From NCBI GenBank assembly GCA_010671905.1, contig JAAHII010000001.1, positions 496,001 to 560,000 on the forward strand: a stretch of DNA of 64,000 bases, in the 5' to 3' direction. Below, piece by piece: positions 19,959 through 28,693 of this stretch. A program made the translations under genes and the position numbers. The first letter of the stretch is position 1, and every line of letters begins with the position of its first letter. The notes beneath the pieces are model-generated. The model had not been told where the DNA came from and searched no databases. It saw only the letters and a list, made by a program, of their open reading frames with translations. The stretch is from Leptolyngbya sp. SIOISBB. GTDB taxonomy: Bacteria; Cyanobacteriota; Cyanobacteriia; Phormidesmidales; Phormidesmidaceae.

Positions 19959-22847
19959 TCAAGCCATTTGACGTTTGATGAGTTGACCAAAGAGGCCGCC
20001 TTCAGCAGCGAGTTCATCAAAACTGCCTTGTTGCACAACGTGACCGGCTTCAACCACATAGATGCGATCGGCATGGCGAATTGTACTCAAGCGATGGGCG
20101 ATGACGACACGGGTGACGTTGAGGCGATCGAGGCTTTCGGTCACGATCGCCTGCGTGCGGTTATCTAACGCACTAGTCGCCTCGTCCATCAGCATGATTT
20201 TAGGTTTCACCGCTAGGGCGCGCGCAATCAGTAAGCGCTGGCGCTGTCCGCCAGAGAGGTTGGTGCCCCCTTCGCTAACGATGGTGTGCATCTGCATGGG
20301 CATGGCTTGCAGGTCATCGGCGAGACCGGCTTTTTCGGCGGCATCCCAAGCATCTTCTAGCGTAATGAGGGCACCGCCCGCCAGATTCTCAAAGATCGAT
20401 CCGGCGCTGAGGCGACTGGTTTGCAGTACCACCCCAAACTGCCGCCGCACAGCGACGACATCCAGGCCCGACAGGTCTTGTCCGTCGTAGTAGACGTTGC
20501 CCTTTTCAGCCGTGTCGAACCCGAGCAGCAGGCGCATGGCCGTGGATTTACCAGAACCTGAGGGGCCGACGAGGGCGATAAACTCGCCCGGCTGGGCCTC
20601 AAAACTCACATTGTCCAAAATCAGCGGACCGTCGGGTTTGTAGCGAAAGCTGACGCGATCGACCTTCAAGGCTCCAGAGAGTTGGCCCGGGTCAGCTTTG
20701 GTGAGGTTGACCTCTGGTTCAGCTTGCAGAATGGGTTGGGCGCGTTGCCAGAGGGGCACCACATCCAGCAGATCGACGAGGGTATTGCTGAGGCTGGTCG
20801 CACCGGAAATGAAGGTGCCAAACGCGACGGAGAAGGCCAGAAAGGTGCCCGTGGAAAGCCCACCACCACCGGTGTTGTCGATAAATTGGCTAGCGAGCCA
20901 AAACAAAATCAACGTGGTGAAAATGGGCAGAATGCGATTGAAAACATCCACTGCATCTTCCAGTTGTTGGGTGCTGAGGGTGAGCCGCAATTGTTGACCA
21001 TAGCGTTGTCCCCAGGTAGCAAAGGCCCGTTCTTCAGCCCCCGCGATACGCAATTTCGAAACCCCATTGATCAGCTGCACGACCAGACCGTACAACTTGC
21101 CCTGAATTTCTAGTAAGGGGCGGTACTTGCGCACGAGGACCAGACCCGAGGCGACGGTAACGGCCATAATTACTAGAGCTACCAACAGGGCAATCAGTGC
21201 CAAAGGGGGACTGTAGTAAAACAGCAGCCCGAGATTGAGCAGTGAGAACACGCCAGAAAAGATGCCTTGTAGCGCCGACCCGCTGAGCTTGCGACGAATG
21301 GCGGTAATGCTGGAAACACGGGAATTTAAGTCACCCGTGGCGTAATCGCGATAAAAGGACGTGCGGAGTTTGAGCAGGCGATCCCACACGGCGGCCTGCA
21401 GGTGAGTATCGGACCCGGTTTCCACTCGCATGGTGGCGATCGCCTGCGCCAGGCGAAAGCACGATGCCCCAAACGCGGCGGCCAATAAGCCCAACCCGAT
21501 TTGGACGAGGAGGGCGCGATCGCCATAGGGCACCACCGTATCGACCAAGGCTGCCGTGGCTTGGGGCACCAACATGCCAATCAGCGTGGCCGCGACCCCT
21601 GTTAACAAGATGGCGAGCCAGTCTTGCCCCTGGCCGCGAAACGTAAATTTCAGCAACGACAGCGCATTCAGATCCGTTGTGGGCAGCGGGCGATAAAACA
21701 CGAAGGCGACCGGATCGAGCGTGTTGGCAACCGCTTGAGTGATGGGAGTGTGCGCGGCGGCGGCCCCTTCATTCAACGCTACGGGGTTAAACAGTTCGTA
21801 TTGACTACCGCTCGTGGGCAACAGTGCGACGGGATGACGATCTTCCCGCGTGTAGGCGACGAGGGGGCCGCTGTCTTGCTGCCACCATTGCCCCCGCAGC
21901 AGCACCCGTCGTAACCGCAGTTGGGAGGCGCGGGCGATCGCTTCCAGCGGTTCCTTCGTGCGGGCGGTATTTTCAGAACGGGCGGGCGGTTCGATGGTGA
22001 CCCCCAAGGCTTTGCCGACGGCCCCGGCGGCGGCGAGAAGGGGCGAGTCAATTTCCTGAAAGTCATCCTGTTCGAGCACCCCTGACAGCGTGCGCACCAC
22101 TTTTTGCGTCACATCCTGGTTCAGCCGTTGGCGTTGCTGAAACCGTCTTAGACTTAACCGTTGACTGCGCGCTTCAATTTGCTGCATCTCGGTAAAGAAG
22201 TAGATGTGCAGCTGCTTGATGCCGCGAATAATAATTTTGCGATTTTTGACTTCTGCCGTGGGCCGAATGAAAAATTCAATATGGTCTTGGGCCTGCATGA
22301 ACATGCAGTGTCCTAAGGGAAAACAGCCAAGTTCTGCTTCCAAGGGAAACGACGGGTGCCCCATCCAAACCGCTTTACCCTGTTGCATACGGACCCAAGA
22401 CACCTTGTCCTCGGGGGAACGACAGATTTGTCCTGCGGTCAGCGAAATATAGTGAACGTCAGGGACGACCCCTCGGCGGGACGTCACAGGCATGCCTTCG
22501 ACCTGACCTAAATGGTGAATCCAAGGGTCGGCCAACTGTTTGAGGCGATCGAGCGGCAGAATCGTGTCGTCTGCTTCGCTCACGGGTAAAGCCACCACTT
22601 CAGACGGCTCTACGGCGACGGCCAACAACCCTAACGTGGTGCTGGGGCAAATGTCAGCACTGAATAGGGCTTCTCCAGCTGCCACGGTGAAGAGATACCG
22701 CCGGGTGCCCACGGGCTGGCCATCTGCAAAAGCAACCACGAAAACCGCCATTTTGCCCGATTTGAGCTGCCAGAGTTGCGAGGGGTCGGTGAGCAGCAGC
22801 GGTTCGTTGGCGGTGATGGTGCGGGGTGGGGTGGCGGTGGCGATCAT
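19959..22847 (-). CDS. NHLM-type bacteriocin export ABC transporter (ATP-binding/permease)
   Basis: 962 residues. The N-terminal 400 or so are the large soluble region seen in NHLM (nitrile-hydratase-leader microcin) transporters, followed by six membrane helices (about 420-690) and a nucleotide-binding domain with Walker A GPSGSGKST (about 761), signature LSGGQRQR (about 864) and Walker B IMLMDEATSALD. There is no C39 peptidase domain. It lies 106 bp downstream of the C39-peptidase ABC protein; the two presumably form a heterodimeric peptide exporter. It is the last gene of a leftward group that starts with the cyclic-nucleotide-binding protein at 27060. Confidence 0.9.
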   Translation of the reverse strand: MIATATPPRTITANEPLLLTDPSQLWQLKSGKMAVFVVAFADGQPVGTRRYLFTVAAGEALFSADICPSTTLGLLAVAVEPSEVVALPVSEADDTILPLDRLKQLADPWIHHLGQVEGMPVTSRRGVVPDVHYISLTAGQICRSPEDKVSWVRMQQGKAVWMGHPSFPLEAELGCFPLGHCMFMQAQDHIEFFIRPTAEVKNRKIIIRGIKQLHIYFFTEMQQIEARSQRLSLRRFQQRQRLNQDVTQKVVRTLSGVLEQDDFQEIDSPLLAAAGAVGKALGVTIEPPARSENTARTKEPLEAIARASQLRLRRVLLRGQWWQQDSGPLVAYTREDRHPVALLPTSGSQYELFNPVALNEGAAAAHTPITQAVANTLDPVAFVFYRPLPTTDLNALSLLKFTFRGQGQDWLAILLTGVAATLIGMLVPQATAALVDTVVPYGDRALLVQIGLGLLAAAFGASCFRLAQAIATMRVETGSDTHLQAAVWDRLLKLRTSFYRDYATGDLNSRVSSITAIRRKLSGSALQGIFSGVFSLLNLGLLFYYSPPLALIALLVALVIMAVTVASGLVLVRKYRPLLEIQGKLYGLVVQLINGVSKLRIAGAEERAFATWGQRYGQQLRLTLSTQQLEDAVDVFNRILPIFTTLILFWLASQFIDNTGGGGLSTGTFLAFSVAFGTFISGATSLSNTLVDLLDVVPLWQRAQPILQAEPEVNLTKADPGQLSGALKVDRVSFRYKPDGPLILDNVSFEAQPGEFIALVGPSGSGKSTAMRLLLGFDTAEKGNVYYDGQDLSGLDVVAVRRQFGVVLQTSRLSAGSIFENLAGGALITLEDAWDAAEKAGLADDLQAMPMQMHTIVSEGGTNLSGGQRQRLLIARALAVKPKIMLMDEATSALDNRTQAIVTESLDRLNVTRVVIAHRLSTIRHADRIYVVEAGHVVQQGSFDELAAEGGLFGQLIKRQMA

Positions 22848-22953: not shown

Positions 22954-25248
<2,295 letters not shown>

Positions 25249-25252
25249 GGTT

Positions 25253-25447
25253 TCAATCAACTAAAAACATTGCGGGGAGGGGGGAAGAGGGCAGTTCATT
25301 GCGGCGGCGTTGGCGATCGCGATTATCAAGGAATGGATCTGCCTGGTCCCCGGCATTTTCAAGGCGAGGGGCGGCATTCCTTAAAAAGTGATTTTGCGAA
25401 TGTCTGACCCTGAGCGGATATGAGCGATCGCCCAACCGGCCCATCAC
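25253..25447 (-). CDS. Possible small ORF bridging the HlyD and ABC genes
   Basis: A 63-64 codon frame starting at GTG 25447 or ATG 25444, overlapping the stop of the HlyD-like gene, and ending inside the first codons of the C39 ABC gene. The double overlap suggests translational coupling. The protein is basic and arginine-rich, contains two HIP1-derived GDRS/DRDRQ stretches, and is like nothing I know. It may be only leader sequence that couples translation through the 180-bp gap. Confidence 0.25.
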   Translation of the reverse strand: MMGRLGDRSYPLRVRHSQNHFLRNAAPRLENAGDQADPFLDNRDRQRRRNELPSSPLPAMFLVD

Positions 25448-26022
25448 CGATCTAAAAACGGCAAGACAAACGTAATGGGCGCTTTTTCTTCCAAAGTGAT
25501 GCGTCCCTGCACGATCACCCCGGCGACTACGGTATTGGGTGGCATCGCGGCATCCATCGGCGACAGTTGCGCCAGCACATCTAAACTGCCTTCTGGGAGT
25601 TCCGTATCCGCATTGATATCGTCTTCTAGAGCCTGGCCTAGGGTGAGTGCCGGAGGTTCTAGCACTTCCACAATTTCGGCTTTCAGCCCCGGTTCGTTAT
25701 AAATCAACAGCGTTTCAGGGGTGAGGACCACTGGCATACCCGGCTCAAACTGGCCACGATAACGATTATCAAAGTGGAGTAGCGCCACCAACTCTCCCCC
25801 CGACTGATCGTTTTGAACGAGATGGCCTCGCCCGCTCGTCGTGACTGGAATGCGCCCGACCAAGCTCCAGATCAACCCCAAGCCCAGCAGCACGCCAATG
25901 GTGCCCAACGGTAGCCAAGTCTTGAGATTGACGATGGTCATCAACTCATCTAACCGCTCTGGAGAAGAGAGCCGCTCCAGCGATTCTTTGCGAAAGAGAT
26001 CTTGGGTCTTTTCCTCAGCCAT
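25444..26022 (-). CDS. Short HlyD-like membrane-fusion protein of the NHLM system
   Basis: 192 residues, far shorter than classic HlyD adaptors (about 400). It has a cytoplasmic N-terminus (FRKESLERLSSPERLDEL, the typical opening of these adaptors), one membrane helix (about 36-56) and a small beta-rich domain ending in VIVQGRITLEEKAPITFVLPFLDR. No long coiled-coil is present. NHLM secretion proteins of this reduced form accompany the paired ABC transporters. The ATG follows the stop of the cyclic-nucleotide-binding gene with no gap, so the genes are co-transcribed. Confidence 0.85.
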   Translation of the reverse strand: MAEEKTQDLFRKESLERLSSPERLDELMTIVNLKTWLPLGTIGVLLGLGLIWSLVGRIPVTTSGRGHLVQNDQSGGELVALLHFDNRYRGQFEPGMPVVLTPETLLIYNEPGLKAEIVEVLEPPALTLGQALEDDINADTELPEGSLDVLAQLSPMDAAMPPNTVVAGVIVQGRITLEEKAPITFVLPFLDR

Positions 26023-27060
26023 TTACGCTACCCCCAATTGCGACAGCATCCAGTTGAATTTTTTGGCCCCCTCTGACATTTGCTGCAGGTCAGCCATATC
26101 GAGTTCCTCATCCAGCAGGTCTTCGTCTGCAGAGGCCGCAGCCCCCTGATTCACCAGTCGCGATCGCACCGCGTACAGCAATTCCAAAATCTCGATGGCA
26201 ATCACTCGATAGAACCGTGACGCAAAACTGTGATCCACCTGCAGCTTGGTCACCAGGGTTTGGCGGGGCACGGCAAACACGAGGGAATCGCGAGTGGCGC
26301 GAATGGTGACCGGCAGGGGGCGAAAATCCAAAAAGGAAATGATGCCCGGCATCCCCCCCTTAGAGATGGTCGTAAAAGCCTTTTGCTCACGGGTGCTGTT
26401 CTCCAGACCCGAAAAACAGAGGTAGAGCGGATTAAAACTCCCTTCCTGAGGCGCCGAAATCGCCATCTGACCATCCAGCAAAACGTAGAGCGCATCGACC
26501 GGGCGGGCTGCTTGGAGCAAGACCTTATCGGCTGGAACGGTTTGGGTTTCACCAAAGGAGACTAGCCAATCAATATCGCTGTCTCGCAGTTCGCCAAAAA
26601 TGGATAGCACCTCTTTAGCAGATCGTTCTCCCCAATGCTGAATGCGGCCGGGCTGCTCAAAAATCCGCCGCAATCGACTGGAAAGCATAATGGCGATAGC
26701 CCGATAAAAATGGGCTGCAAAGGCGATGTCTTCTTCTAACTTGGCTTGGAGGTTGTCAAGGGACAGCGACATCACCATCGAGGGTTCCAAAAGTTGGACG
26801 CTGCACATCTCAGGCAAGCCGAACAGCGCGCCCAACCCCACGATTTCGCCTTGTCCCAACTCATCGACTAGGGCGTCATTCGACGGAGTTTCATGCCCCA
26901 CCATGAGGCCCAATTTACCCTCGATCAACACGTACAAGACGTCAGAATTGATTTGACCAGGGAGTAACTGCTGCCCCTCTGAAAGCCGCGATCGCTCACC
27001 CTGCGTGATCATCCAGTCCAAATCGGTATTACTCAGCTCGCGCAATAAGGTGTCTGCCAT
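26023..27060 (-). CDS. Protein with two cyclic-nucleotide-binding domains, first gene of the export operon
   Basis: 345 residues. Two CNB-type beta barrels, roughly 15-135 and 155-290, can be aligned with each other: both have an ISFLDF/IVGLGALF-type segment, an LYVLL/LYVLI-DGQ/EGK strand pair and a closing stretch ending ASRFYRVIAIEILELL or AAHFYRAIAIMLSSRL. The phosphate-binding cassette arginine seen in true cAMP receptors is not obvious, so the nucleotide may not be cAMP. There is no DNA-binding helix-turn-helix, and the C-terminus (about 300-345) is acidic. It is directly joined to the HlyD-like gene, so it most likely gates or assembles the exporter. It could bind the leader peptide instead of a nucleotide. 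Confidence 0.85.
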   Translation of the reverse strand: MADTLLRELSNTDLDWMITQGERSRLSEGQQLLPGQINSDVLYVLIEGKLGLMVGHETPSNDALVDELGQGEIVGLGALFGLPEMCSVQLLEPSMVMSLSLDNLQAKLEEDIAFAAHFYRAIAIMLSSRLRRIFEQPGRIQHWGERSAKEVLSIFGELRDSDIDWLVSFGETQTVPADKVLLQAARPVDALYVLLDGQMAISAPQEGSFNPLYLCFSGLENSTREQKAFTTISKGGMPGIISFLDFRPLPVTIRATRDSLVFAVPRQTLVTKLQVDHSFASRFYRVIAIEILELLYAVRSRLVNQGAAASADEDLLDEELDMADLQQMSEGAKKFNWMLSQLGVA

Positions 27061-27136
27061 AGAAGGTTTTGATGCGACCTCTCAATGCTACGAGCATTCA
27101 AAACTCAACCTCTAAGTCGTAGAAGAAGAGCAGATC

Positions 27137-27268
27137 ATATCCAACAAATGCAAACAAGAAACTTAACTTTTAGAGACATTACTCTTTGATAGTTAAAAAG
27201 GCTAAAGATTAAAATTTAATTCGCAAAAGAAGATTCGACCATATCCAACAAATACAGACCAGAAACTT
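27137..27268. repeat. 28-bp direct repeat pair in the divergent bacteriocin control region
   Basis: ATATCCAACAAATGCAAACA (then AGAAACTT) at 27137-27164 recurs at 27241-27268 with three mismatches in 28 bases, 104 bp apart. Both lie in the AT-rich 398-bp region between the leftward exporter operon (start 27060) and the rightward peptide gene (27459). The spacing is close to ten helical turns. They are candidate operator sites for a shared regulator. Confidence 0.55.
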
Positions 27269-27458
27269 GATTTGTGAGAACTCCCTGAGGGCAAGGTTAA
27301 TTCTCATTTAAAGGATGATGAGTAAAGAATAAGTATATGCAGAATCCTAAAGTTGAAAATGATTTTTAAGGATGATTTCACTTGCGACTTTTTCAGGCAT
27401 ACAATCCAGGATTAAATTTCTAGAGTGTTCATGCAACTGATTGAAGGAGCTATTTTTA

Positions 27459-27737
27459 ATGGCTGAAAACACGAACAAAGAAACCCTGTCTGACGATCAG
27501 CTTAAAGATGTGAGTGGTGGTGCTGATTTTGATCAACTGCGTCGTGAGAACTTGGACAAAGATGCGGTGAATTTTGATGAGCTACGCCGCGAAAACCTTG
27601 ATAAGGATGCTGTCTCTGACGCTGCGCTAGAAGGCGTTGCTGGGGGCGCTAACTTTGACCAACTCCGCCGCGAGAACTTGGACAAAGATGCTTCTAATCT
27701 CGATGAAATTCGTCGGGAGAACTTAGACAAAGACTAA
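27459..27737 (+). CDS. Repeat-containing double-glycine precursor peptide, candidate RiPP or bacteriocin
   Basis: 92 residues from the ATG at 27459, with AAGGAG at 27444-27449. Structure: a leader ending LSDDQLKDVSGGA (double glycine at 20-21), two copies of a 12-residue unit of type FDQLRRENLDKD, a second leader-like motif VSDAALEGVAGGA, then two more units (the last IRRENLDKD at the C-terminus). So the gene looks like a duplicated leader-plus-two-cores block. The C39 peptidase of the neighbouring exporter cuts after GG, which would release one or two peptides of about 27-29 residues, each with two charged repeats. There is no Cys, Ser or Thr in the repeats, so lanthionine or azoline chemistry is excluded; crosslinks between Arg/Lys and Asp/Glu/Asn remain possible. 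Confidence 0.8.
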   Translation: MAENTNKETLSDDQLKDVSGGADFDQLRRENLDKDAVNFDELRRENLDKDAVSDAALEGVAGGANFDQLRRENLDKDASNLDEIRRENLDKD

Positions 27738-27774: not shown

Positions 27775-27809
27775 CAGGCTCTCTGTATTTCATGGGGAGC
27801 CTGCTTTTT
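27775..27809 (+). terminator. Terminator after the precursor peptide gene
   Basis: CAGGCTCT pairs with GGAGCCTG (7 of 8) around a 13-base loop, followed by CTTTTT. It lies 37 bases after the stop of the peptide gene. Confidence 0.65.
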
Positions 27810-28282: not shown

Positions 28283-28693
28283 TTAGACTTTACTCTCTCG
28301 CACCATTTGAATCCCGTGAATGGGGCAGTTTGGCACCTCTGCTGCCGCGTCGCGACGGTACCAAGTTTGATGACAACTCGCCACGGGACAAACATAGCGG
28401 GGACTTTCCACGGTGCCCGCTTTGCCGGGTAGGGGTTGATACGTGCGAATGAGGCTGAGAATTTCGGCGGCTGGTTTCTGCTCTTCTAGATACAACCGCA
28501 ACCATTCGCGTGTCGGCTCAGCCACTGACAATACGCGACGAATTTCTGCTTGTTGAGTGGTCGAGTTGGCTGTAGCGCTCAAAGCTAACTCCAGGCGCTG
28601 CCTCATCGCATCCGCATCAGGAAGCTCTAGTAACTCTGCTAAATAAGGCCGAATGGCCTGTGCCGCTTGCAATACATCTGGAGAAGAAGTCAT
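28283..28693 (-). CDS. Hypothetical protein with a C-terminal zinc-like Cys/His motif
   Basis: 136 residues. The N-terminal 85 are helical (a run of leucine-rich helices ending in LRLYLEEQKPAAEILSLIRTYQPLPG). The last 45 contain YVCPVASCHQTWYRRDAAAEVPNCPIHG, a C-x4-CH ... C-x2-H arrangement that could bind one zinc ion. Short proteins of this shape occur in cyanobacteria and are annotated as hypothetical. There is no operon partner: the upstream gene is divergent and the downstream side is a repeat region. Confidence 0.65.
   Translation of the reverse strand: MTSSPDVLQAAQAIRPYLAELLELPDADAMRQRLELALSATANSTTQQAEIRRVLSVAEPTREWLRLYLEEQKPAAEILSLIRTYQPLPGKAGTVESPRYVCPVASCHQTWYRRDAAAEVPNCPIHGIQMVRESKV

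Follow-up and report, generated by a model that had tools for sequence, protein, structure and literature searches.

A double-glycine peptide with two-unit repeat cores beside an NHLM exporter, and Sec-signal proteins of the same repeat type, in Leptolyngbya sp. SIOISBB and its relatives

Introduction

Biofilm formation in the cyanobacterium Synechococcus elongatus is reported to require four small double-glycine (GG) motif proteins, EbfG1-4, as well as the C39 cysteine of the transporter PteB, and the passages of that report drawn on here describe mature EbfG1-4 as having no homology to the proteins of other cyanobacteria (PMC4997328). In the part of a survey of 58 cyanobacterial genomes cited here, 290 predicted precursors are given, with cores that are little conserved (PMC3140520), and a cluster of three transport genes has been delimited by the models TIGR03794, TIGR03796 and TIGR03797 (PMC2887384). 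The label of bacteriocin precursor has been given to hundreds of double-glycine peptides from cyanobacteria, and by the same survey's account the products are mostly unknown (PMC3140520).

Here we describe one such peptide gene in the window, by which we mean the whole stretch of 64,000 nucleotides analysed (contig JAAHII010000001.1, positions 496,001 to 560,000). The gene lies divergent from an NHLM-type exporter operon, and its product carries a repeat shared with other proteins of the same genome, which have Sec-type signal peptides. An initial annotation had proposed that the peptide might represent a new class of RiPP with side-chain crosslinks. The comparisons below point instead to an unmodified peptide, which we would place with the Sec-signal proteins in one extracellular system.

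Results

The peptide gene and its product

The open reading frame reads as the initial annotation claimed: a leader ending in GG and two repeat units, followed by another leader-like segment, also with a terminal GG, and a further two units (Table 1). Double-glycine leaders cut by C39 peptidases follow a rule of hydrophobic residues at positions -12, -7 and -4, and both LSDDQLKDVSGG and VSDAALEGVAGG have hydrophobic residues at these positions and glycines at -2 and -1. Against the NCBIfam model bacteriocin_sig, leader 1 scores 15.3 bits, slightly below the cut-off of 15.7. The precursor was read as doubled in three genes, those of G000, G006 and G047, the latter two with counterparts of the inner leader AVSDAALEGVAGG, and core 2 resembles the single core of other genera.

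Units of the form (F/L)DxxRRENLDKD start at residues 24, 39, 66 and 81. All four had been annotated as xDxLRRENLDKD, a description that holds for their number but not for the fourth unit, LDEIRRENLDKD, in which I replaces L. Aligned to each other, the two halves of the peptide score 160, with 51 as the highest value among 2000 shuffles, which rules out a chance origin of the repeats. The cores had also been described as free of Cys, Ser and Thr, which is wrong in detail, as Ser79 lies in core 2 and Ser53 in the inner leader. Cuts after each GG would yield residues 64-92, whose 29 residues agree with the 27-29 expected by the annotation, but also residues 22-63, which at 42 residues do not. Both window cores are acidic, with net charges of -4 (core 1) and -3 (core 2); the two type-B cores (see below) for which charge was computed are at -1.

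Table 1. Coordinates of the peptide gene, its parts and the divergent exporter operon (positions in the window)
Feature	Position	Strand	Details
NHLM ABC2 permease/ATPase	19959..22847	-	TIGR03797 999.8 bits, cut-off 709.4
NHLM ABC1 (C39 peptidase, permease, ATPase)	22954..25260	-	TIGR03796 1093 bits, cut-off 853.3
Short HlyD-like secretion protein	25444..26022	-	192 aa; partial TIGR03794 match with 69.9 bits (cut-off of 156.2 not reached)
Double cyclic-nucleotide-binding 'bacteriocin-type transport-associated' protein	26023..27060	-	TIGR03896 216.3 bits, cut-off 161.05
Conserved upstream block	27389..27403	+	TTTTTCAGGCATACA; about 70 bases ahead of the peptide ATG
Double-glycine repeat peptide precursor	27459..27737	+	92 aa, doubled form
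Leader 1	27459..27521	+	residues 1-21; C-terminal end LSDDQLKDVSGG; hydrophobic at -12, -7, -4; GG at -2, -1
Core 1	27522..27608	+	residues 22-50; two repeat units
Inner leader	27609..27647	+	residues 51-63; AVSDAALEGVAGG; hydrophobic/GG spacing as in leader 1
Core 2	27648..27734	+	residues 64-92; two repeat units
Intrinsic-terminator-like hairpin followed by a T run	27775..27803	+	1 found, against 0.8 expected in shuffles

AlphaFold2 predicted helices both for the 92-residue peptide alone (mean pLDDT 68.9) and for a Sec-signal protein with nine rows (mean pLDDT 49.7), confidences too low for the models to be of use. The helical moment of core 1, at 0.17, is lower than the average of its shuffles (0.31), and the strongest signal of this core falls at 72 degrees, that is, at a five-residue period, while the strongest periodicity of core 2 falls at 122 degrees. 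An amphipathic helix or coiled coil was rejected as a description of the cores, the moment calculation having found no amphipathicity above shuffles. The initial annotation had offered an unmodified charged helix as its fallback: an unmodified charged peptide does fit better than a RiPP, and it may or may not be helical, given this result and helices of low-to-middling AlphaFold2 confidence. Database searches added little. Among the Pfam matches listed none was to pentapeptide repeats, and EF-hand and YadA-stalk matches were below their cut-offs; a search of solved structures with one Sec-signal protein as the query returned nothing convincing (best E 0.46); and PHROGs gave weak matches, all except one to families of unknown function.

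An AAGGAG sequence at 27444-27449 ends 9 bases ahead of the ATG. The block TTTTTTCAGGCAGACA, about 70 bases 5' of the ATG, is kept upstream of 15 of the 28 GG genes examined when at least 14 of 16 bases are required, with the seed having been picked from the same sequences, and it is present in 14 of the 15 exporter-linked genes of type A (the RRENLDKD type). An exact copy of the core of this block is present in 41 of 254 loci, many of which overlap one another, and in none of the Sec-gene loci L009-L034. Separately, the divergent intergenic region between the peptide gene and the cyclic-nucleotide-binding (cNMP) gene holds a direct repeat of 70 bases (27100-27169 and 27204-27273, 74% identity, 104 bases apart).

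The exporter operon and its surroundings

The divergent operon runs from the TIGR03896-type cNMP gene through the gene for the HlyD-like protein to NHLM ABC1 and ABC2. ABC1 has the Cys, His and Asp of C39 peptidases and is the only protein of the genome over the TIGR03796 cut-off, with 75 of 138 first-look candidates scored. The initial annotation placed the exporter next to the peptide gene, and it does belong to the neighbouring divergent operon, but some 2.2 kb off, behind the cNMP and HlyD-like genes. The HlyD-like protein spans less than half of the 421-position TIGR03794 model; homologs in relatives align along most of its 192 residues. Export of the peptide by the C39 exporter, as predicted from this gene anatomy, is well supported.

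Nine further flanking genes were searched against Pfam. Their matches were to LysE, FMN-binding, Dus, MscS-like, PLD, GHL5 and family 20 glycosyltransferase proteins, with one HEPN match below its cut-off and one gene, at 28283-28693 (136 aa) near the peptide gene, without any match. No RiPP-modifying enzyme was recognised among these nine genes, the one without a Pfam match included, or in the exporter operon. The proposed new RiPP class is therefore unsupported, and the occurrence of the same repeat in Sec-signal proteins also speaks against it.

Relatives, distribution and conservation

Peptides with a GG leader and repeat cores of this family were found in at least 25 of the 63 genomes of the order. 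Type-A GG genes account for at least 22 genes in at least 17 of these genomes, and 15 of the 22 adjoin a TIGR03896-type cNMP gene, as in the window (for one, in G041, the contig holds only the start of that gene). The arrangement peptide, cNMP, HlyD, ABC1, ABC2 recurs in relatives. As such, the check suggested at the outset, a search for RRENLDKD-type repeats beside C39 ABC genes, did return homologs of this kind, and the reading of the locus as a repeat-core GG precursor neighbouring a C39 exporter is supported, the arrangement being conserved in relatives. The seven other type-A genes belong to genera g5 and g8 and lie on contigs of 3.9-10.2 kb on which no close exporter homolog was found, one of them having an ATPase-domain match of 30-33%. 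Many GG genes in g5, g6 and g8 lie away from the exporter.

The named relatives (16 loci) include Halomicronema, Oscillatoria sp. CS-180, Leptolyngbya and Nodosilinea. When the type-A alignment was searched against 386 genomes sampled from the phylum, three matched, all from the family of the window's genome and one of them that genome itself; the type-B alignment gave two weak matches in the same sample, both to GG genes of this family. Since the type-B genomes were not matched, the order is thinly represented in this sample. Plasmid records gave no match, and the family looks lineage-restricted. Neither RRENLDKD nor the repeat strings of either type were found in the open-access papers searched, subscription papers and bioRxiv being outside the scope of that search.

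The peptide itself is under constraint. Comparison of the four units in the window gene gives a pooled pS of 1.0 and a pN of 0.077 (uncorrected proportions), so that synonymous sites are saturated while the protein barely differs. The units are therefore not recent copies, and slippage or gene conversion in the recent past of the gene was rejected on the same ground. Compared with the G006 ortholog, uncorrected pN/pS is 0.18 overall, and by part 0.40 in leader 1, 0.08 and 0.12 in the cores and 0.23 in the inner leader. Such low values indicate that the 92-residue protein is maintained, inner leader included.

Type-B peptides and other cargo

The slot beside the cNMP gene in G054 holds a GG peptide with a different core, KNVHKTRLEHLDNQTKSVDDVQDTRLEHLDNQTK, hereafter type B. 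A search of 13 genomes with this core, followed by a search of the 63 genomes with an alignment of type-B peptides, placed type-B GG genes in eight genomes (G012-G016, G019, G054 and G057). In G014 (genus g6) two such genes are located at 7426853 and 7961916, with the NHLM gene far off at 7739328 on the same contig. Within type-A genomes the type-B alignment gave at most three matches each (best E 1.3e-9), and those in G000 and G061, for which coordinates are listed, fall on the GG gene. Eight of 60 column shuffles scored as high as the comparison of type-A with type-B cores; homology of the two was accordingly left without support, and the two may have diverged strongly, or a new module may have been captured.

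Other cargo was observed in the course of these searches. A second GG peptide in G054 (L165, 1483-1674) has two units, RRLEQLNTHDSSK and TRLEQLDEHDSSK, that represent a third variant of the repeat, and the slot beside the cNMP gene in G026 (L182, 5261-5443) holds a GG peptide with a degenerate repeat, ending in MERFREMRRENRDK. Genus g7 has a second NHLM cluster with CTB-like GG peptides unrelated to the repeat cargo (L140, 689-976 and 1155-1430; L189, 10194-10469), one kind of which has an SGGCGCPGS motif.

Sec-signal proteins carry the matching repeat

The window's genome has nine further genes with the repeat of the window peptide, scattered singly, and their products have Sec-type signal peptides. 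These proteins start like MKRIALALTTLTAITLAIAPASYAA, which we read from the sequence as a Sec signal peptide and which would direct them along the Sec route. The signal is followed by repeats of 15 residues, of which AVNFDELRRENLDKD is an example; in the genus of the window's strain they are mostly paired between VEIQVKG-like linkers. The genomes with type-B peptides have Sec proteins with 18-residue repeats such as AVDDVQATRLEFLDNQTK (RLEHLDNQTK type).

The two kinds of protein differ in their number of units. Every one of the 37 GG cores counted has two (25 of type A and 12 of type B), a count that leaves aside the second peptide of G054, in which two units can be made out by eye, and the degenerate G026 form, which shows no clear unit pair. 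The Sec repeat proteins have 3-14 units each in a sample of 46, namely those fetched that showed at least two units.

In all 17 genomes in which both were read (nine of type A and eight of type B, from seven genera), the repeat type of the GG peptide is that of the Sec proteins. Cross-scores amount to 0.62-0.94 of the self-score within a type and 0.18-0.30 between types. No finer co-variation was found within a type: the peptides are not consistently nearest to Sec proteins encoded in the same genus, and g5 is the farthest from its own. In a tree of 21 exporters, g6, g10 and g12 form a clade (100/99), outside which type-A g5 branches at an unresolved fork, so the type may have changed just once and the 17 genomes do not count as independent cases. 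For four of the 17 type-A genomes (G031, G042, G045 and G061), the GG gene is the only repeat gene at E <= 1e-9, so these genomes may lack a Sec partner or have a diverged one; G061 has one further match at 7.6e-9.

The upstream elements of the two gene sets differ. In place of the GG block, 18 Sec genes from g1, g8 and g11 share a promoter-like region with TCAG boxes, mostly 22, 9, 33 and 11 bases apart, and the count of TCAG exceeds that in shuffles (p < 0.05) in 16 of the 18 aligned sequences. These include eight of the nine Sec genes of the window's genome; the ninth, L033, is without the region. Such an arrangement points to one regulator for the Sec repeat gene set. The region lies within the 120-150 bases upstream of the genes (L025-L032, L009, L011-L014, L016, L017, L092, L242 and L243) and also has a common CACTATAGAACTCAAGATGATT stretch. 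A promoter common to GG and Sec genes was considered and set aside: the best match to the GG block had p <= 0.04 against shuffles in five of 24 Sec upstream regions, all near -115, a result that is suggestive and inconsistent.

Discussion

The presence of one repeat in an exported peptide and in Sec-signal proteins suggests that the two act jointly outside the cell. We give roughly even odds (about 0.5) to the reading that the gene product is an unmodified, C39-cut peptide of two repeats acting in the same extracellular repeat-protein system as the Sec proteins. The C39 domain of the NHLM exporter would cut the precursor after each GG, and the exporter would release one or two short, unmodified polyampholyte peptides of two units each. 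Outside the cell or in the periplasm, these would meet the Sec proteins built from the same units and might join, cap or compete in contacts between repeats, rather than act as a free-standing antibiotic.

Genome mining files GG leaders with C39/NHLM genes as bacteriocin clusters, in the parts of the surveys considered here (PMC3140520, PMC2887384). The NCBIfam name of the neighbouring TIGR03896 protein is 'bacteriocin-type transport-associated', and the second NHLM cluster of g7 has cargo of a different, CTB-like kind, all of which would suit a class II-like unmodified bacteriocin, with the Sec repeat proteins as decoys or immunity factors that bind its target or the peptide. Typical membrane-active bacteriocins, however, are unlike the acidic and conserved cores of the window peptide (pN/pS 0.08-0.12), no immunity gene was recognised next door, where the 136-residue gene has no Pfam match, and the producer's own Sec proteins carry the repeat in abundance, so we regard a bacteriocin as unlikely. 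It is just as doubtful, in our judgement, that a GG leader captured the Sec repeat module of its lineage by recombination, with no functional link between the two. The lack of finer tracking within types and the lack of demonstrable similarity between type-A and type-B cores fit such a spread, but the saturated synonymous sites between units of conserved protein sequence and the two units in 37 of 37 cores indicate that the module came under selection after any capture. Least probable of all is a RiPP modified in trans by enzymes encoded elsewhere in the genome, with crosslinks from Asp or Glu to Lys, Arg or Asn side chains. The exporter family often accompanies RiPP precursors, according to the portion of PMC2887384 relied on here; even so, no modifying enzyme was recognised in the nine flanking genes and operon, and the Sec-signal proteins, which have the repeat too, would have to undergo this chemistry on a separate route, which makes this quite improbable.

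A role in a biofilm or matrix, with the peptide as an EbfG-like factor exported in the manner of PteB and the Sec proteins as further matrix parts, is by analogy a plausible reading, though we would not favour it outright. It overlaps with the unmodified peptide in a shared repeat-protein system and would supply a phenotype for it. EbfG and PteB are reported to be needed for biofilm formation in S. elongatus (PMC4997328), and two export signals on proteins of one repeat would suit a matrix; against this, EbfG1-4 are said, in the passages of the same report used here, to be without homology to other cyanobacterial proteins (PMC4997328).

Returning to the unmodified two-repeat peptide and its putative Sec partners, the matching of types allows a more speculative extension, which we put forward tentatively. 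The repeat could be a lineage-specific extracellular code, in which exported two-unit modules match the organism's own multi-repeat Sec proteins and regulate or complete their assembly with a clade-specific fit. If true, such a code would work like a self-recognition device. More generally, this cargo points to its own likely partners, namely Sec-signal proteins that have its repeat and whose repeat type changes in the same genera as that of the peptide, and because the repeat names the likely partners, the role of such a peptide becomes directly testable. The same comparison provides a search rule for other cargo: exporter peptides whose repeat matches that of Sec repeat proteins.

Comparison with known systems

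With the NHLP and N11P cargo of NHLM systems the window peptide shares the exporter models, a gene beside the operon and predicted C39 cleavage after GG, but its leader falls under the cut-offs of both families (12.6 against 50.9 bits for NHLP and 15.4 against 32.3 bits for Nif11). In the operon, ABC1 and ABC2 exceed the curated cut-offs, and the HlyD-like protein, a short form, does not (69.9 against 156.2 bits). Two of six Sec-type proteins scanned exceed the cut-off for MxKDx repeat proteins (TIGR02953), whereas the window protein scores 17.3 against 41 bits and the repeats, of 15 or 18 residues, are not MxKDx. For the CTB family bacteriocins (NF038167), it is the leader part that aligns: the best stretch covers residues 6-31, running from the leader into core 1, and the window protein, at 24.4 bits, remains below the cut-off of 32, which the G047 relative exceeds with 32.3 bits. 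Finally, no repeat cores are described for EbfG1-4 of S. elongatus in the passages cited here, but these are likewise small GG-motif proteins, exported in a cyanobacterium with the aid of a C39 transporter, PteB (PMC4997328).
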